The translations under genes and the position numbers were made by a program. The notes under the pieces were generated by a model, which worked only from the letters and a program-made list of their open reading frames with translations, did not search any database and was not told the DNA's origin. This document shows, in pieces, positions 15,956-48,864 of a stretch of DNA of 64,000 nucleotides. Position 1 is the first letter of the stretch. Each line of letters starts with the position of its first letter. The DNA is from Anaerocolumna aminovalerica (lineage in GTDB: Bacteria > Bacillota > Clostridia > Lachnospirales > Lachnospiraceae). The DNA lies in assembly GCF_900115365.1 (NCBI RefSeq), contig NZ_FOWD01000002.1, positions 186,001-250,000 on the forward strand, given 5' to 3'.

Positions 15956-18238
15956 TTAATTGGCAGGAATAATATATCGATTCAATACGGACCCTGTTTT
16001 ATTTCCAGCAAGATCCATAATCTTGTTTGTTTCAGTGGGCAATAATTCCATATATTTACCCATTTCCGGAGTAGCCTTTAAATTAATTAGTATAGTTTTG
16101 TCATTAATGGATGTGGAAAGTACCAAATCCGCATTATTCTGCATTACTTTAAAACTTGGAGTGCCGGTTATGGTTTCATTGAAAACCAGCATAATACTGA
16201 TAGGATAATAGTAAGTATAACTTACCAGCTCCGGAGCTCTATTCTCTTTTAAGGTTATTACCGTCTGAAATGAATTCATTTCTTTAAAGCTATTGTTATA
16301 CCCTTTCACTCCCGTAATACTGATTTGATAATTTTGTGTAACTGCTATGGAACCTGCCTGAACTTTCAGCTTAACAACTCCGCTGTTCGTAGAGTTGTTT
16401 AATTCCGCAGCAGTAATAATCAGGCCGGGAATTATATAGTTATTAATTTTTTCAGCCGATGCTTTATCTAACATATTATTAAACTGCACATTGATTATAC
16501 TATTATCCTCTTTGTCCTGTAGAATGGAAACAGGTGCCGGTAATGGTAACAGATTATTGGTATCAAAGTTAACATTATATCCCTGTAAGGTATCGGAATA
16601 CTTATCATTTGGATCTACATTATATCCATCCCAATATCCTACAGATACTCTTTGGTATCCTTTTAACTTAGCTGCTGCTTCGCTTAATTTGTAGTTGACC
16701 TTGGTATTATTTCCGGTATCAACTACTCCTTTAATGCCTTCTAAGTTATTAATAACTAACATACCTGCAGTTTTGATTGGCTTATCAAAGGTAACTGTCA
16801 GATAATAATAATCCGTTCGTTCCACTCTTTGAATTTTGGCCTGAGACTGATAAGCAGTATTTGTTTTAAATGTTACTGTAACCGGATCGCCTTCTATGAT
16901 ATTTCCTGCTAAATCTTTTAAATTATAAAGACGAACTGACAATAATTTATTCCGGTCACTTTGGGGTATACCCACTAAATTAATGCTTAAGGATCTTCTA
17001 TCAGAAGAGGTTACATAGTTTGATCTTGTATTGATTATATTAAGTGTTGTCTGCTCCAATGTCTGACCGCCGGTTGCTGCTTTTCCGTCTGCAACTATCA
17101 TATTAGTGAAATCCATGGCTTCACTGAACTTAAACGTTGCAATTAAACCGGTGTTATCAAGGTCAACCCCTTCATATTTTGGTTTCTTTGTATCATAAAC
17201 AGAATATTCTTTCACAAATTCTTTTAATACTTTACCATCAACGGATTTTATGGAGGATGTTAGGCGAATTTCATACACACCTTTCAATACGTAGGAAGAC
17301 TGGATAGAAAGTGTTTTTCCATCCTCTGATAAAGTACCTGTTAATACTCCCGGAGCATTGGCAATATTACCTTGGGAATCCCATCTCGGGGTTATAATTA
17401 CTGAATTTAATAATGCTATATTGGCACCAATTACCGTATTCTTATCAATGGCCCTGTCAAAGGCAACATCGATTTTGGTTGCTTCCTTTAATGTAATATT
17501 TGTTACATTTACTTTTACAACATCATCATCGTCATAATCATCACCATACTCATAGTCGTCATCATAGTCGTAGTCATCATTAACAACTAAAATGGTAATA
17601 GTATCACGAACAGTACTTGTTTTTGCCTCTTCACTGGAACGGGCTGCTACAGCAGTTAGTCTTACAACCCCTTCTTTCAGCCCTTTTACAGTACCATCAC
17701 TATAAAGTCTGGCAACATAATTATTATCAATAAACCAATAGGTCTTATAATTAGAATTGCCTGGTGTTATTTTAGCATTAAAATTAAATTTGTCACCTTC
17801 CTCCAGAATGTGAAAACCCTGATTGTTTAGCTTCCCATTATGAATCTTAATACTGATTGCTTTTGTATATACTTTTACTTTACAGGATGGTGTTACAACA
17901 GCACCATTTTTATAAGTTATCTTACATTTAATAAAAACCGTACCTTGTCTTTTTCCCGTAATGGTAGCTGACTTTTTATCTTTTACCTTTACAGTGGCAA
18001 CTTTTTTGTTCTGAGAATACCAATAAACCTTTTTTACCTGGCTGCCTAAATTCTCTAATGATATGGTAAATGTTTCATCTTCACTTATAGTCTTTTGTGT
18101 CATAGAAAAAGTTGGTCTTTGATTATATTTCTTATTTGTTTTTGCTTCGGCAGTTGTACTATTCCCTAAAGAAAACATTGGTAAGACCAACAGGAGAGTT
18201 ATCATAAGTGTAATACCTTTTAAGATACGTTTCTTCAT
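15956..18238 (-). CDS. Secreted Ig-like/SbsA-like surface protein A
   Basis: The 760-residue protein has a signal peptide (KKRILKGITLMITLLLVLPM) ending near AEAK. Two Ig-like (Big_2 type) repeats follow (KVYWYSQNKKVATVKVKDK, YKTYWFIDNNYVARLYSDGTVKGLKEGVVRL). A very acidic Asp/Tyr run (about 225-245) leads into several beta-sandwich repeats. These repeats contain VAFDRAIDKNTVIGANI, ATFKFSEAMDFTNM and VTFDKPIK, the style of SbsA_Ig repeats found in S-layer proteins. I see no sortase motif or S-layer homology domain, so anchoring is unknown. It is a paralogue of the next gene. The ATG at 18238 fits AAAAGGTGGG better than the upstream GTG. Confidence 0.85.
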   Translation of the reverse strand: MKKRILKGITLMITLLLVLPMFSLGNSTTAEAKTNKKYNQRPTFSMTQKTISEDETFTISLENLGSQVKKVYWYSQNKKVATVKVKDKKSATITGKRQGTVFIKCKITYKNGAVVTPSCKVKVYTKAISIKIHNGKLNNQGFHILEEGDKFNFNAKITPGNSNYKTYWFIDNNYVARLYSDGTVKGLKEGVVRLTAVAARSSEEAKTSTVRDTITILVVNDDYDYDDDYEYGDDYDDDDVVKVNVTNITLKEATKIDVAFDRAIDKNTVIGANIALLNSVIITPRWDSQGNIANAPGVLTGTLSEDGKTLSIQSSYVLKGVYEIRLTSSIKSVDGKVLKEFVKEYSVYDTKKPKYEGVDLDNTGLIATFKFSEAMDFTNMIVADGKAATGGQTLEQTTLNIINTRSNYVTSSDRRSLSINLVGIPQSDRNKLLSVRLYNLKDLAGNIIEGDPVTVTFKTNTAYQSQAKIQRVERTDYYYLTVTFDKPIKTAGMLVINNLEGIKGVVDTGNNTKVNYKLSEAAAKLKGYQRVSVGYWDGYNVDPNDKYSDTLQGYNVNFDTNNLLPLPAPVSILQDKEDNSIINVQFNNMLDKASAEKINNYIIPGLIITAAELNNSTNSGVVKLKVQAGSIAVTQNYQISITGVKGYNNSFKEMNSFQTVITLKENRAPELVSYTYYYPISIMLVFNETITGTPSFKVMQNNADLVLSTSINDKTILINLKATPEMGKYMELLPTETNKIMDLAGNKTGSVLNRYIIPAN

Positions 18239-18277
18239 AATTCCCACCTTTTCATTTTATAAGCATTCTATCTACAA

Positions 18278-18396: not shown

Positions 18397-20967
18397 TTAA
18401 TATTTTACAGGTATATTTCTAATTGTAATAATTGCTGCGTTTCCATTAGCATCTTTTATTACATTGTTTTGAGTTGGTTCCAATAAAATAGGTTGATTAT
18501 TAATATTAGGAGCCACACTTAGATTAATCATAACTTTGTTACCCACGATAGAAGCAATACCACCTAAATCTATACCACCCTGAGTTACTTTGAATGAAGG
18601 GGATCCTGAAATATCCTCTGTAAATGTAAGGGTAATCAGACCAGGATAGCTAAGTACTGCACTAACAACAGCAGGAGCTGTGTTTTCTCTCAGGTATATG
18701 GGTGTCTGGTAAGTATCCATTGCTGAATAGGTATTATGATACCCTGTAATTCCGCTGATGATGGCATAGTAAGCAGTATTAGCTATAATGGTACCGGATT
18801 GAACACGTAATTCAATTCTTGCACCATCAACATCATTATTATCTTTTAATGTTGCTGACACAATGCTAACACCCGGAATATTATAATTTGCTACATTTTG
18901 TGCAGTAGTTTCGTCAACCTTCACACCAAAATATACTTCTATAATATTATTATCATCTGGTGCCTGCTGTACTAATCTTGGAGCAGGTAAATTACTGGAT
19001 ACTGCTGCATTCTTAAGTACGGTAATCGTAGTCTTATTACTTCTGTTCCAATAAGTATCTCTAACAAAAGCTTCTGGAATTTCAATCATGTAAGTACCAC
19101 TGTATAATATTTCATTGGAGTTCAGTAATAATGTTACTTCTTTATCCTTTGCAACTGCAGTGAAACTCAATGGTTTGTTGGAGTATCTGTCATTATTACT
19201 AGTTACGATGTTTGCATTTAATATACCCCTTGGATATAGCACTTCAACATTCTTATTATAAGTTAATACCAATTTATAAACATCTACATTATTTATTGTT
19301 TCAATGCCTAATTCACTCTTTATTAATTGAGGAACTGTCTTATCGGATGTAAAGTTAACTTGTCTTGAAACTCCAGTATATGCTGTTGTGTCATTGATAG
19401 ATACATTGTAACTATCCCAGTACTGTATGGTAACGGTCTGCATACCCGTAAGTTGTGCAGAGGCTGTAGACAACTTATAATTAACTTTTCTTGAATCCTC
19501 TTTATCTACAACACCAGCCGGCATTTCATAACTGCCTGAAATAGTTAAGGTTCCAACTGTCTTAATTGGTCTATCAAAGGTTGCTGTTAATGTATCATAA
19601 CTTGTCCTTGCGATGTTTAATAATCTAGCTTGAGGTTTTGGAGTTGTATCTGTTGTTAATAATGCTCTTAACGGATAAGTTGGCGGAACATTACCTGCTA
19701 TATCTGTAATTCCAGTAATCTGAATTTCAAAAATCTTATTCTGATCTACAGGATCCATGTTGGTTAAATCAATGGTTAATGACTTCCTATCCTCTGATAC
19801 AACATAATTCCTTACTTGTAACAATGTATTCGTTGTAGTTGCTGTAATTACTTTTGAACTTAATGCTCTTGCACCTATAATATCCATCTTAGAGAAATTA
19901 ACTGCTTCAGAGAAGTGAATAGTAGCCTTTAATCCTGTTTCATCTGTAGTATATTTTATGAAAGAAGGACCAATTGTATCATAGTATTTTAAAGTCTTAC
20001 TAAATGGCTGTAAATCTGATTTATCTTTACCTTTAACATCGGAGGTTAAGATAAGTCCATAAATACCATTGAAATTATACTGGGTCTGAATAGTTAACAC
20101 CTTTCCGTCATTGGATAAGGTTGCAGTAATTTCTCCCAAACCTTTGGCAGTATTATTCTTCTCATCGGTCTTAGCCATTATAACAACGGAATCTTTTAAT
20201 TTTTTATCCTTACCAATTACGGTATCTGGATCAATTGCACTGCTAAAAGTAACCTTTAATGTAGTAGAATCTGTTAAATCAACGCTATTTACTTTCGTTG
20301 TCTTTTCAACAATCTCAATATTGATAGCATCATCTATCTTACTATTTGCTGCTGCATCCTTTGTCATACCGGCAGCTACTCTTAATACTACAAAACCAGG
20401 CTTCACACCGGTTACTTTACCTGTAACAGCATCTACTTTAGCATAGGTTTCTCCGGAATTACCAAGAAAATAATATAATTTTTCACTGGCATTGCTTGGT
20501 GTTTTAGTAGCATTAAAATCAAAAGTCTCGCCTACTGCTATAACATGTCTGTTATTATTTTCCTCATTATCTAATGCGTTTGTAATCTTAACACTTGTGA
20601 CAGGAATCTGTACAGTAACCTGACTATAAGGACGTCTGATAGTTCCATCTTTATAGAAAACACCACATTTAATATAAGCGGATCCCTTACCAACTGTAGT
20701 TACTTTTGCAACTGCCGGGTCTTTTGTAGCCTGTACCTTTGCAATTTTATTATTGGTGGAATACCATTTATATTTTGTTACATTCTTACCTGCATTTTTA
20801 ACAGATATAGTATAGGTTGCACCGGTTCCTACAATAGTTTTCTTAGAAATGGATAATGTAGGCTTTGGTGCGGCTGCTTCTGCCACTATACTGCCTCCCG
20901 GTATTATAGGTATAGCCATCATTAAGACTAAGAGACCTACAATACATTTTAACATTCGTTGCTTCAT
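18397..20967 (-). CDS. Secreted Ig-like/SbsA-like surface protein B
   Basis: The 856-residue protein has a signal peptide (MKQRMLKCIVGLLVLMMAIP, cleaved near AEAAA). An Ig-like repeat (KYKWYSTNNKIAKVQA) and a second domain ending VTGVKPGFVVLRVAA follow. The C-terminal two thirds consist of SbsA-type beta-sandwich repeats (VTFSSAIDPDTVIGKDKKL, ATIHFSEAVNFSKMDI, ATFDRPIKTVGTLTI, LTFTEDISGSPSFKV). It aligns segment by segment with protein A but lacks the acidic run and has one extra repeat. It probably forms part of the cell-surface layer. It is a single-gene transcript with its own promoter and terminator. Confidence 0.87.
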   Translation of the reverse strand: MKQRMLKCIVGLLVLMMAIPIIPGGSIVAEAAAPKPTLSISKKTIVGTGATYTISVKNAGKNVTKYKWYSTNNKIAKVQATKDPAVAKVTTVGKGSAYIKCGVFYKDGTIRRPYSQVTVQIPVTSVKITNALDNEENNNRHVIAVGETFDFNATKTPSNASEKLYYFLGNSGETYAKVDAVTGKVTGVKPGFVVLRVAAGMTKDAAANSKIDDAINIEIVEKTTKVNSVDLTDSTTLKVTFSSAIDPDTVIGKDKKLKDSVVIMAKTDEKNNTAKGLGEITATLSNDGKVLTIQTQYNFNGIYGLILTSDVKGKDKSDLQPFSKTLKYYDTIGPSFIKYTTDETGLKATIHFSEAVNFSKMDIIGARALSSKVITATTTNTLLQVRNYVVSEDRKSLTIDLTNMDPVDQNKIFEIQITGITDIAGNVPPTYPLRALLTTDTTPKPQARLLNIARTSYDTLTATFDRPIKTVGTLTISGSYEMPAGVVDKEDSRKVNYKLSTASAQLTGMQTVTIQYWDSYNVSINDTTAYTGVSRQVNFTSDKTVPQLIKSELGIETINNVDVYKLVLTYNKNVEVLYPRGILNANIVTSNNDRYSNKPLSFTAVAKDKEVTLLLNSNEILYSGTYMIEIPEAFVRDTYWNRSNKTTITVLKNAAVSSNLPAPRLVQQAPDDNNIIEVYFGVKVDETTAQNVANYNIPGVSIVSATLKDNNDVDGARIELRVQSGTIIANTAYYAIISGITGYHNTYSAMDTYQTPIYLRENTAPAVVSAVLSYPGLITLTFTEDISGSPSFKVTQGGIDLGGIASIVGNKVMINLSVAPNINNQPILLEPTQNNVIKDANGNAAIITIRNIPVKY

Positions 20968-21110: not shown

Positions 21111-21137
21111 AAAAAAAGCCCAACCATAAGGCCGGGC
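21111..21137 (-). terminator. Terminator of peptide gene 1
   Basis: GCCCGGCC/GGTTGGGC arms (two G-U pairs, TTAT loop) and seven T residues follow the stop of peptide gene 1 by nine bases. It is homologous to the terminators after peptide genes 2 and 5. Confidence 0.9.
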
Positions 21138-21146
21138 CGAGAGAAA

Positions 21147-21224
21147 TTATTTGCAGTTTCCAAAACGACAGTATTTTAATATTTGTTCTAATAATTCTTT
21201 GCAAGAGCTAAAGTTAAAACACAT
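21147..21224 (-). CDS. Cys-containing micro-peptide 1 (25 residues)
   Basis: An ATG frame begins MCFNFSSCKELL and ends KYCRFGNCK. It is preceded by AAAAGGAGGCAATAATT, an ideal ribosome site, and followed by a dedicated terminator. It is the most diverged member of a five-gene family, with four cysteines instead of two, but it keeps the FNFSSC start, the leucine-rich middle (LLEQILK) and the YC-aromatic-Gly end. There is no signal peptide; the peptide could form an amphipathic helix between the cysteines. Conservation of frame, start site and terminator among copies argues that it is translated. Function unknown. Confidence 0.8.
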   Translation of the reverse strand: MCFNFSSCKELLEQILKYCRFGNCK

Positions 21225-21230
21225 AATTAT

Positions 21231-21335
21231 TGCCTCCTTTTGATTTGCTATCTCTTAGGAACAAACTCATTGTAACACTTTCGTAATATTTATGAAATAT
21301 ATAAGTTGTGGAAACATAGGGGGGATATGGGAGTG
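21231..21335 (-). repeat. Duplicated leader of peptide gene 1
   Basis: About 105 bases nearly identical to 21811-21914. On the minus strand the repeat runs from CACTCCCATATCCCCC through a promoter-like region and TTCCTAAGAGATAGCAAATC to the ribosome site. The two copies differ at only a handful of positions, so this is a recent duplication or is under strong constraint. Confidence 0.85.
21269..21296 (-). promoter_or_regulatory. Candidate promoter of peptide gene 1
   Basis: Minus-strand TTCATA, 16 bases, TACAAT inside the duplicated leader. The TACAATGA box recurs upstream of peptides 1, 3 and 4 and is degenerate (TGTAATGA) before peptide 2. Confidence 0.5.
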
Positions 21336-21413
21336 ACTGTAAATGTACAGATTTAATCGATGAATTTCCTTCTCGGCTGAAAAATCCATGACTGATGCAA
21401 CCGCTTATATCAC

Positions 21414-21442
21414 AAAAAAAGGCTCAACCATTAGGTTGAGCC
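21414..21442 (-). terminator. Terminator of peptide genes 4-3-2
   Basis: A perfect nine-base stem (GGCTCAACC/GGTTGAGCC, ATTA loop) and seven T residues lie nine bases after the stop of peptide gene 2. No terminator separates genes 4, 3 and 2, so this one ends a three-gene unit. Confidence 0.93.
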
Positions 21443-21450
21443 GAAATAAA

Positions 21451-21525
21451 TTATTTACCAAAATTACAGTATTTTAATAACTGATTTAATAAATCGTTGA
21501 AATTACATGAACTAAAATTAAACAT
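21451..21525 (-). CDS. Cys-containing micro-peptide 2 (24 residues)
   Basis: The frame runs MFNFSSCNFNDLLNQLLK then YCNFGK. AAAAAGGAGATTAAAATA precedes the ATG. It differs from peptide 3 at one residue (Asn for Ser at position 10). The two cysteines, the repeated CNF triplet and the C-terminal Gly-Lys are kept. It is the last gene of the 4-3-2 unit. No known family is recognised. Confidence 0.82.
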   Translation of the reverse strand: MFNFSSCNFNDLLNQLLKYCNFGK

Positions 21526-21588
21526 TATTTTAATCTCCTTTTTGTTTTATTATGTCTTAGGAAAGAACTCATTACAGCTCTTTAAGAA

Positions 21589-21663
21589 TTATTTACCGAA
21601 ATTACAGTATTTTAATAATTGATTTAATAAATCACTGAAATTACATGAACTAAAATTAAACAT
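21589..21663 (-). CDS. Cys-containing micro-peptide 3 (24 residues)
   Basis: The frame runs MFNFSSCNFSDLLNQLLK then YCNFGK, with an AAAAAGGAGGCAAAAATA ribosome site. It differs from peptides 4 and 5 by one conservative change (Leu for Ile near position 16). Most nucleotide differences among copies are silent, consistent with selection on the peptide. It is the middle gene of the 4-3-2 unit, with its own TACAATGA box upstream. Confidence 0.85.
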   Translation of the reverse strand: MFNFSSCNFSDLLNQLLKYCNFGK

Positions 21664-21727
21664 TATTTTTGCCTCCTTTTTGATTTGCTATCTCTTAGGA
21701 AAGAATTCATTGTAATACTTTTGTACA

Positions 21728-21802
21728 TTATTTTCCAAAATTGCAGTATTTTAAGATTTGATTTAATAAATCGCTGAAATTACATGAACTAAAATTAAAC
21801 AT
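21728..21802 (-). CDS. Cys-containing micro-peptide 4 (24 residues)
   Basis: The frame runs MFNFSSCNFSDLLNQILK then YCNFGK, preceded by AAAAAGGAGGTTAAAATT. The peptide is identical to peptide 5, although the two genes differ at several bases (for example GGA versus GGT, TGC versus TGT). It is the first gene of the 4-3-2 unit and lies directly behind the second copy of the duplicated leader. Confidence 0.85.
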   Translation of the reverse strand: MFNFSSCNFSDLLNQILKYCNFGK

Positions 21803-21810
21803 AATTTTAA

Positions 21811-21914
21811 CCTCCTTTTTGATTTGCTATCTCTTAGGAACAAATTCATTGTAACACTTTTGTAATATTTATGAAATATATAAGTTGTGGAAACATAGGG
21901 GGAATATGGGAGTG
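21811..21914 (-). repeat. Duplicated leader of peptide gene 4
   Basis: Second copy of the leader described at 21231-21335. Homology includes the CCCCCTATGTTTCCACAACTT block upstream of the candidate promoter, suggesting a conserved control site rather than only a promoter. Confidence 0.85.
21848..21875 (-). promoter_or_regulatory. Candidate promoter of peptide genes 4-3-2
   Basis: Minus-strand TTCATA, 16 bases, TACAAT, the same arrangement as at 21269-21296. Confidence 0.5.
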
Positions 21915-21971
21915 GCTGTAAATAAAGACAGATATGGATTAATTCAGCATCTGACAGTAATGATGTATTAT

Positions 21972-21999
21972 AAAAAAGGCCCAACCATAAGGTTGAGCC
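21972..21999 (-). terminator. Terminator of peptide gene 5
   Basis: GGCTCAACC/GGCCCAACC-type nine-base arms (one G-U pair) and six T residues lie nine bases after peptide gene 5. It ends the 107-residue gene plus peptide 5 unit. Confidence 0.92.
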
Positions 22000-22007
22000 G
22001 AAATAAA

Positions 22008-22082
22008 TTATTTACCAAAATTACAATATTTTAAGATTTGATTTAATAAATCACTGAAATTACATGAACTAAAATTAAACAT
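22008..22082 (-). CDS. Cys-containing micro-peptide 5 (24 residues)
   Basis: The frame encodes the same peptide as gene 4 (MFNFSSCNFSD to YCNFGK). The ribosome site (AATAGAGGCAAAACA) is weaker than those of the other copies, and the duplicated leader is absent. Instead the gene lies 62 bases after the stop of the 107-residue gene, with a small hairpin between them, so it is probably expressed from that gene's promoter. Confidence 0.82.
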   Translation of the reverse strand: MFNFSSCNFSDLLNQILKYCNFGK

Positions 22083-22144: not shown

Positions 22145-22468
22145 TTATTTACGGCTGTTTAACTCTTTCTTAAGTAACGTTATTTGTTTTTTAAGATCAT
22201 CAATATCCTCACAAATCTGATCATTTTCTGAATCACTTTGTAAAGATTGTTCCTGAGCAGCCGCTGTTAACATAGTTTGACCAACGCTAACTATGAAGTT
22301 TCCAAGGGCATTTTTCTGATTGATACTTAAGTCATCTAGTAATATTAGACCAAATATTGTTGATAGTAATGTAAATTGTTTTGGAGGTAGTGATAGTAAG
22401 CACGATTCTATCGGATTGACACAAGATTTATTTTTCTTATTTTTCTCGTCATTCAAATTTTCGCTCAT
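22145..22468 (-). CDS. 107-residue companion of the micro-peptide array
   Basis: I do not recognise this protein. It has a Lys/Asn-rich start (MSENLNDEKNKKNKSC), two cysteines (SCVNPIESC), and a hydrophobic region of about 50 residues (FTLLSTIFGLILLDD, ALGNFIVSVGQTMLTAAA) interrupted by polar residues. It ends in an acidic stretch and a Lys/Leu heptad segment (DDLKKQITLLKKEL). The hydrophobic part could be a membrane or oligomerisation helix. It lies directly upstream of peptide 5 on the same strand with no terminator between, so the two are likely functionally linked. AAAGGT precedes the ATG. Confidence 0.75.
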   Translation of the reverse strand: MSENLNDEKNKKNKSCVNPIESCLLSLPPKQFTLLSTIFGLILLDDLSINQKNALGNFIVSVGQTMLTAAAQEQSLQSDSENDQICEDIDDLKKQITLLKKELNSRK

Positions 22469-48592: not shown

Positions 48593-48668
48593 ACTAAAGA
48601 ATAGGGATTGTATCACCTTAAACCTGGCTATATAATGACCCATGGTTGTATTGGCTTGACATTCTTTA

Positions 48669-48829
48669 GGTAGCACTCCATCAGATATGATGACAGTCAT
48701 ATAGTTATTAACCATAAGCCCAACTAAGATAATGCAGAATTACCTTAATTTCGGCATCTTTTCCTTTCTATTACATTCCTCTATGTCTGCCATATCCTGT
48801 AATATAGTCTTAAAAGATGCGCCTCTACC
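48669..48829 (-). ncRNA. Lysine riboswitch (L-box)
   Basis: The minus strand shows the L-box core in order: GGTAGAGGCGC at the 5' end, AAGGAAAAGATGCCGAA, GTTGGGCTTATGG, ACTGTCA and the closing TGGAGTGCTACC. The first and last blocks pair to form P1. With the terminator at 48569-48592 it turns off dapA-dapB when lysine is high. Confidence 0.95.
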
Positions 48830-48864
48830 AAAATACTTATTAAATTCCGTATTATGTTGCCTAC

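Follow-up and report, generated by a model that had tools for sequence, protein, structure and literature searches.

A tandem array of five tiny genes in Anaerocolumna aminovalerica is a local expansion of a scattered, apparently new family of microprotein genes

The window analysed here, a 64,000-nucleotide stretch of the Anaerocolumna aminovalerica contig NZ_FOWD01000002.1 (positions 186,001 to 250,000), carries at 21111-22082 a run of five tiny minus-strand ORFs encoding nearly the same peptide, and raises the question of what such genes make and whether they are peculiar to this locus. All five ATG frames called in an initial annotation of this DNA are present. Copy 1 (22008..22082; MFNFSSCNFSDLLNQILKYCNFGK), copy 2 (21728..21802; peptide as in copy 1; AAAAAGGAGG), copy 3 (21589..21663; MFNFSSCNFSDLLNQLLKYCNFGK) and copy 4 (21451..21525; MFNFSSCNFNDLLNQLLKYCNFGK) are near-identical 24-mers that share the pattern MFNFSSCNF[SN]DLLNQ[IL]LKYCNFGK, and copy 5 (21147..21224; MCFNFSSCKELLEQILKYCRFGNCK) is a divergent 25-mer. 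Ribosome sites of the strong AAAAGGAG/AAAGGAGG type precede four of the copies, as had been noted at the outset, the exception being copy 1, which has only a weak AGAGG. Copies 1 and 2 specify the same peptide and are separated by four silent and zero replacement differences; from such silent differences the initial annotation had argued for selection on the product, and the wider comparison bears this out: the six pairs among the four 24-mers show 17 synonymous and 13 replacement differences (pN/pS 0.13), and seven of their nine variable columns fall at third codon positions. Within the organism's own genome, the five array copies match at E <= 5e-13, with the next best match at 0.29, and a search for a sixth copy found none. 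Repeat analysis reveals a 138/139-nt unit underlying copies 2-4 and a further promoter copy at a distance of 579 nt. The array is beyond chance, since a profile of the five copies and their relatives within the genus matches the same peptide type in another genus with an E value of 5.6e-12.

The minus strand of the array carries two full promoter/leader blocks. The first (21815..21893) serves copies 2-4: it matches the promoter-only model described below with E 1.5e-16, contains an exact double box, TTACA-N5-GTTACAAT, at 21865-21848, and is supported by a promoter scan, with a TG ahead of the second hexamer. The second (21233..21314), before copy 5, matches the same model with E 9.1e-17 and is also found by the promoter scan. 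A decayed block before copy 3 (21676..21741; E 2.7e-5) keeps TACAAT and has lost its -35 side; the match is strong only before the copies starting at 21802 and 21224, and weak before copy 3; the block preceding copy 4 (start at 21525) is decayed, and both this copy and copy 1 are rated as having none of their own. Terminators on the same strand follow copies 1 (21978..21999), 4 (21421..21442) and 5 (21117..21138), the very copies (starts at 22082, 21525 and 21224) behind which the initial annotation, counting from the low coordinate, had placed them as its copies 5, 2 and 1; they are exactly the three found between 20950 and 22700, for a shuffle mean of 0.8. Directly upstream of copy 1, and possibly co-transcribed with it, lies a 107-aa minus-strand ORF (22145..22468) that is hydrophobic in its central part and coiled-coil-like at its C-terminus. 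Neither Pfam nor NCBIfam gave it a convincing match, it was found only once in its own genome, and it matched nothing in phage records. From the positions of the promoter blocks and terminators, it is likely that there are three transcription units, namely, the 107-aa ORF with copy 1, copies 2-4, and copy 5. Downstream of the array, also on the minus strand, are two large proteins in succession, both secreted-looking and both containing Big_2 Ig-like domains (15956-18247 and 18397-20967), and, in one relative within the genus (G014), a relative of one Big_2 protein lies near a partial peptide copy. Elsewhere in the window, a lysine riboswitch occupies 48663-48835 on the minus strand (E 1.3e-34).

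The window array belongs to a larger, scattered and previously unrecognised family of microprotein genes, of which it is a local expansion. Taken together, peptide profiles, an exact DNA pattern and the promoter-only model yield 51 distinct peptides of 19-32 aa, the typical member reading MCFNF-x-S-C-(amphipathic helix)-C-...-C; as the peptide profiles and the promoter-only model converge, we judge from these sequences that the family is almost certainly real. Its carriers are mostly Lachnospiraceae, where the union of all searches finds it in 22 of 397 sampled genomes. The group-A profile gives convincing matches (E < 1e-6) in five of these, the own genome included; the group-B profile, built from the finds of the pattern scan, matches 22 genomes at E 0.02, and 14 were accepted on inspection, again with the own genome included; the promoter-only model, run on the same 397, added four carrier genomes. 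Within the genus, seven of 15 genomes have a profile match and six carry the peptide after inspection (own included), the copy in G014 being cut by a contig end and G010 being rejected. The site downstream of pheT is common to the window and G014 only among these carriers; G001, G002, G003 and G006 have one full gene each, at unrelated sites. Searches centred on two other carriers found the peptide in three of 115 and two of 115 genomes, all in the carriers' own genera, and in a class-wide sample of 391 genomes, none of 13 with a match was accepted besides the own genome. A later ORF script, applied to the loci fetched for weak profile matches (25 group-A, 21 group-B and 14 class-wide), found no further family-like ORF there. 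Three loci were left out of the family as either not a peptide or having no start (L015, L016 and L017); two of them, L016 in G014 and L017 in G003, are peptide copies without a start or promoter that adjoin intact terminators, and look decayed or recombined.

The exact DNA pattern (AAGGAGG, a gap of 3-12 nt, then ATGTGYTTYAAYTTY) was scanned over 84,980 species genomes and returned 31 stretches, 28 of which encode family members, with one of these (L134) kept on weaker evidence: its peptide, dyad and terminator fit and its double box does not. The other three (L139, L140 and L143, in records labelled Prevotella, Anoxybacillus and Metamycoplasmataceae) are chance matches to the pattern. Named carriers include Konateibacter massiliensis, Ca. 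Galacturonibacter soehngenii, Lachnotalea glycerini and Lachnoclostridium phytofermentans, and further ones are Kineothrix sp., Anaerosporobacter faecicola, Muricomes intestini and Faecalicatena contorta; one carrier MAG is labelled Oscillospiraceae. The genes are single, dispersed or in runs of 2-5: there are four copies at three places in Galacturonibacter, four copies in Konateibacter, three on one contig of the L. phytofermentans MAG and two in genome G177, and consecutive frames number two in Anaerosporobacter and three in G278. Many family genes have a terminator just behind the frame, although a scripted count of 43 of 49 was set aside because its stem rule was too loose. Relatives have homologous units in which the leader is the same and the frames are intact, so that the missing homologues and broken frames named by the initial annotation as refuting outcomes were not seen. 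The tandem array on which it centred is real but does not define the family, for in many relatives the genes occur singly or scattered; what is diagnostic is the promoter/leader block, which it had not foreseen.

Among the 51 distinct peptides, 45 start with MCF, 47 have Cys2 and 33 contain four cysteines, although the number of cysteines ranges from two to five and their spacing varies; given this range, one cysteine chemistry cannot account for all members. Since MCFNF was a requirement of the pattern scan, statistics on the peptide start are biased; the peptides at five previously unseen places found by the promoter alone are free of this bias, and all start with MCF. The 12 residues following the second cysteine are predicted to form an amphipathic helix, with a mean moment of 0.53 versus 0.25 for shuffled sequences; of 46 distinct peptides, 45 have a moment higher than the mean of their shuffles. 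Twenty-four of the 46 have a net charge of 0, and 17 one of +1. Copy 5 of the window shows every family trait (19-32 aa, usually an MCF start, two to five cysteines and the amphipathic helix), including the usual four cysteines. The four 24-mers are atypical: they have two cysteines and lack Cys2 and the last one, so that, if four cysteines matter, these copies would be specialised or degenerate, with copy 5 keeping the norm. Comparison of copies within four genomes gives pN/pS values of 0.10-0.24 (using three of the four Galacturonibacter copies), and between genera 0.45-0.48, where synonymous change is probably saturated; on these codon comparisons, the frame of 19-32 codons is evidently under selection for its peptide.

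What is constant across the family is a block of ~80 nt that comprises a sigma-A-type promoter, TGTTACA half-sites 11 bp apart and a dyad. An alignment of 39 promoters, with eight invariant columns, reads TTCCA, TATT.CA (-35 region), TGTTACA (spacer), TGTTACAAT (-10) and TTGT...TTA near the predicted start, and the exact double box is present in 27 of the 39 rows. Sixteen of 19 carrier genomes contain the same box, at 25 places in all: 20 are at family promoters (two of which overlap within one promoter) and five elsewhere; a reversed-pattern control found five places. A loose search for the box in the own genome stayed near the control level (292 versus 236).

An independent test used a model of the promoter and leader containing zero coding letters. 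Run on the same 397 genomes, it identified 26 places in 21 genomes at E <= 3e-9, the next match being at 1.4e-6, and all 26 precede a family peptide. Nineteen of these places are in the model and seven are not: those in G051 and G155 have peptides that were already known, and close relatives inside the model, and the remaining five are new, namely, G195 (MCFKFISNCSDLWNYIRNCFGC), G254 (MCFRLFSNCSDLMSLLRSCFGC), G192 (MCFTNCEDLLAFIRNCFGC) and, twice, G177 (MCFRFYSCNDIAALIRSCFGY). At E 0.1, the model matches 319 of the 397 genomes, and matches below the gap are read as background: the nine loci just below it (L248-L256) have no family peptide. One carrier with a weak promoter (G031) was missed above the gap. 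The first place below it (L248; G144:C40:61181), probably a chance match, precedes a 29-aa ORF that, we presume, resembles holin-like type I toxins.

The half-sites suggest a candidate regulator. In the available text of one source (PMC9210968), the promoters of the WalR (YycF) regulon of Firmicutes have the consensus TGTWAH-N5-TGTWAH, in which, as here, the half-sites are 11 bp apart. This consensus fits 31 of the 39 promoters on the reverse strand and 25 on the forward strand, compared with 0.04 of 39 per strand in letter shuffles, although, as the rows are related, these counts are not independent trials; both strands are fitted because TGTTACA is nearly self-complementary. Moreover, two half-sites coincide with the -10 and, in group A, the -35 elements. 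A WalR-like response regulator is thus a guess from the sequence of the predicted sites; the described WalR targets are mainly cell-envelope genes rather than 23-residue peptides. In Anaerosporobacter, a triple TTACA repeat lies upstream of a secreted-looking 375-aa protein (L216; G179:C35:7251), which is a possible further target of the same putative regulator.

The dyad near the predicted start was evaluated in 22 hand-picked group-B leaders, the core being required for alignment; rows with an insertion, other leader types and group A were left out of the counts. Of the cells in the proposed stem, 92.6% are paired, against at most 58.4% when it is slid. Eleven cells are changed on both sides, as against 3.8 in shuffles, with 0 of 500 shuffles as high, and the paired changes include TTAGCTAA to TCAGCTGA and to TTGGCCAG; of the five measures, two were unremarkable, namely, pairs with changes on both sides and pair types. 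Because the leaders fold only weakly as single strands (0 to -8.7 kcal/mol, with no structure in four of 44), the dyad could be either a DNA operator or an mRNA stem. Its distance from the -10 element is nearly fixed, whereas the -10 lies 29 to 119 nt from the ribosome site, which argues that the dyad belongs to the transcription start or the mRNA 5' end and, by the same spacing, would not belong to the ribosome site.

The surroundings of the genes were compared for 43 loci, among which some places are represented more than once, and a Pfam scan covered 37 loci (122 proteins) against 45 control loci (134 proteins). No neighbour family recurs across genera beyond common regulators (in at most four of the 122 proteins, among the best 25 of 142 families), and the product therefore probably acts in trans; such independence argues against a leader peptide, a linked toxin-antitoxin pair and a modified-peptide cluster. 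An attenuator leader peptide is further rejected because what lies downstream varies from genus to genus and is often oppositely oriented. Cell-wall hydrolases form the largest neighbour cluster (eight loci), but GH25 accounts for only three of the 122 proteins by Pfam, two of these being in one related context; GH25 is absent among the best 25 of 211 families for the 134 control proteins. We regard this link as too weak. Typically, then, a family gene consists, as far as can be read from its sequence, of a conserved promoter, a leader with a dyad, a strong ribosome site and a short frame, with no fixed neighbour.

Carriage by prophages or plasmids is rejected as a general origin. The 775-nt array had zero matches in 72,556 plasmid records; its only match in 50,697 phage records covers 55 nt in a streptococcal satellite phage, ahead of an unrelated regulator gene. 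One record deposited as 'Bacteriophage sp.' (MT836467.1; L226) does encode a family member, MCFRFINCSQWLNAFCGYFNFGC, but inspection by eye suggests a piece of bacterial chromosome, given its DNA-polymerase-I-like and LD-carboxypeptidase-like ORFs. A single match in viral_contigs, identical to a Konateibacter copy, lies at a predicted provirus edge and adjoins ORFs that are, by eye, amidase- and holin-like; this setting is not general.

The family matches nothing tested and is thus rated new: as the initial annotation had supposed, no described family was recovered. For 48 of 49 peptides (one being below the length limit), Pfam (best E 0.058) and PHROGs (best E 0.031) offered nothing convincing, and there were zero matches in NCBIfam and PADLOC; a profile search of PDB sequences gave nothing below E 1.5, and no Rfam family matched, although scans of this kind are not powerful when queries are only 23 residues long. 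The motifs MCFNF, CFNFNSC, CFNFSSC and CFNFSNC are absent from the text of 5.39 million open papers, a scope that excludes supplements and most subscription journals, and the matches listed from the small-protein literature hold, in their available text, nothing recognisable as this family. The peptide family is apparently undescribed; this claim concerns the family rather than a proven new mechanism, as small regulated microproteins are in general known.

How the peptides act can be proposed only tentatively. The reading that we favour, as a possibility held at somewhat less than even confidence, is that of a microprotein gated by a response regulator and retained by the cell, whose amphipathic helix may act on a membrane or a protein. 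A regulator of the OmpR/PhoB type, WalR-like by site sequence, would bind the TGTTACA half-sites inside the promoter and gate transcription, more likely as a repressor, since the sites overlap the spacer and the -10. The dyad at the 5' end of the mRNA might stabilise the message or bind a regulator. The leaderless peptide would stay with the producing cell, where its helix could dock on the membrane or a partner protein and modulate a target in trans, with the cysteines supplying metal binding, disulfides or thiol anchoring, and extra gene copies would raise the dose. SpoVM, an amphipathic microprotein with a fixed role in sporulation, is comparable in size and in having a single amphipathic helix; this family differs from it in its cysteines and patchy distribution, and the searches yielded no sequence match to it.

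The peptides could instead be secreted in the manner of phenol-soluble modulins, leaving by an unlinked exporter to serve as surfactant, antagonist or signal. The staphylococcal phenol-soluble modulins are leaderless amphipathic helices of 20-25 aa encoded in similar tandem copies; their likeness to the present family lies in exactly these traits, and length, the helix, the want of a leader sequence, patchy distribution and several similar frames per transcript (in the window, two in L153 and three in L175) all favour such a role. However, the peptides are near-neutral and mostly have three to five cysteines, which phenol-soluble modulins are not known to carry; the promoter is different; no transporter, exporter or immunity gene recurs nearby; and the Pfam and NCBIfam scans through which the two were compared gave nothing convincing for 48 peptides. 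We consider secretion unlikely, though worth keeping in mind. Binding of zinc, iron-sulfur or copper by the cysteines, in a cytosolic protein induced by metal or redox stress, would suit the prevalence of Cys2 and of four cysteines, but the variable number and spacing of these residues (the window's 24-mers keep just two) and the want of any recurrent metal-resistance neighbour make this a rather slim prospect.

Two other readings seem to us improbable. In one, the product is a signalling or modified peptide, AgrD-like or other, with its processing enzymes encoded elsewhere: small size, cysteines, a conserved N-terminus and multiple copies are in keeping with this, but no modifying enzyme, transporter or receptor recurs among the 122 neighbours of 37 loci (best 25 of 142 families), there is no NCBIfam match, and the usual leader plus core exceeds the length of the family peptides. 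In the other, to which we likewise give little credence, the transcript is a small RNA and its frame secondary; the 5' block is the most conserved part and has the dyad at the predicted start, yet the low pN/pS within genomes, the family peptide behind every strong promoter match and the absence of an Rfam family speak for the peptide. Finally, a type I toxin is very improbable: tiny intergenic genes, tandem or dispersed, with their own promoters and terminators recall the Ibs/Ldr-type toxins, but these are hydrophobic peptides paired with antisense RNAs, whereas the family segment is amphipathic, cysteine-containing and broken by polar or charged residues rather than a hydrophobic membrane span, and no antisense gene was recognised, plus-strand promoter-like matches being at shuffle level in a pattern scan.

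Returning to the regulator-gated, cell-retained microprotein, it is conceivable, if rather doubtful, that these genes are the first of a class: leaderless, mostly four-cysteine helical microproteins that spread and multiply in Lachnospiraceae whatever their genomic context, and that act directly on the cell envelope or its sensor system. As most gene finders do not call proteins as short as 19-32 residues, the family is probably unannotated in many anaerobes. The constant promoter block finds members without recourse to the peptide, lends itself to use as a reporter and suggests a single conserved regulator, and the carriers include named isolates (Konateibacter massiliensis and Lachnotalea glycerini) that are open to functional tests. 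A WalR-like regulator would bring a peptide into the control of the cell wall, whereas a secreted product would represent a bacterial peptide of a new kind.
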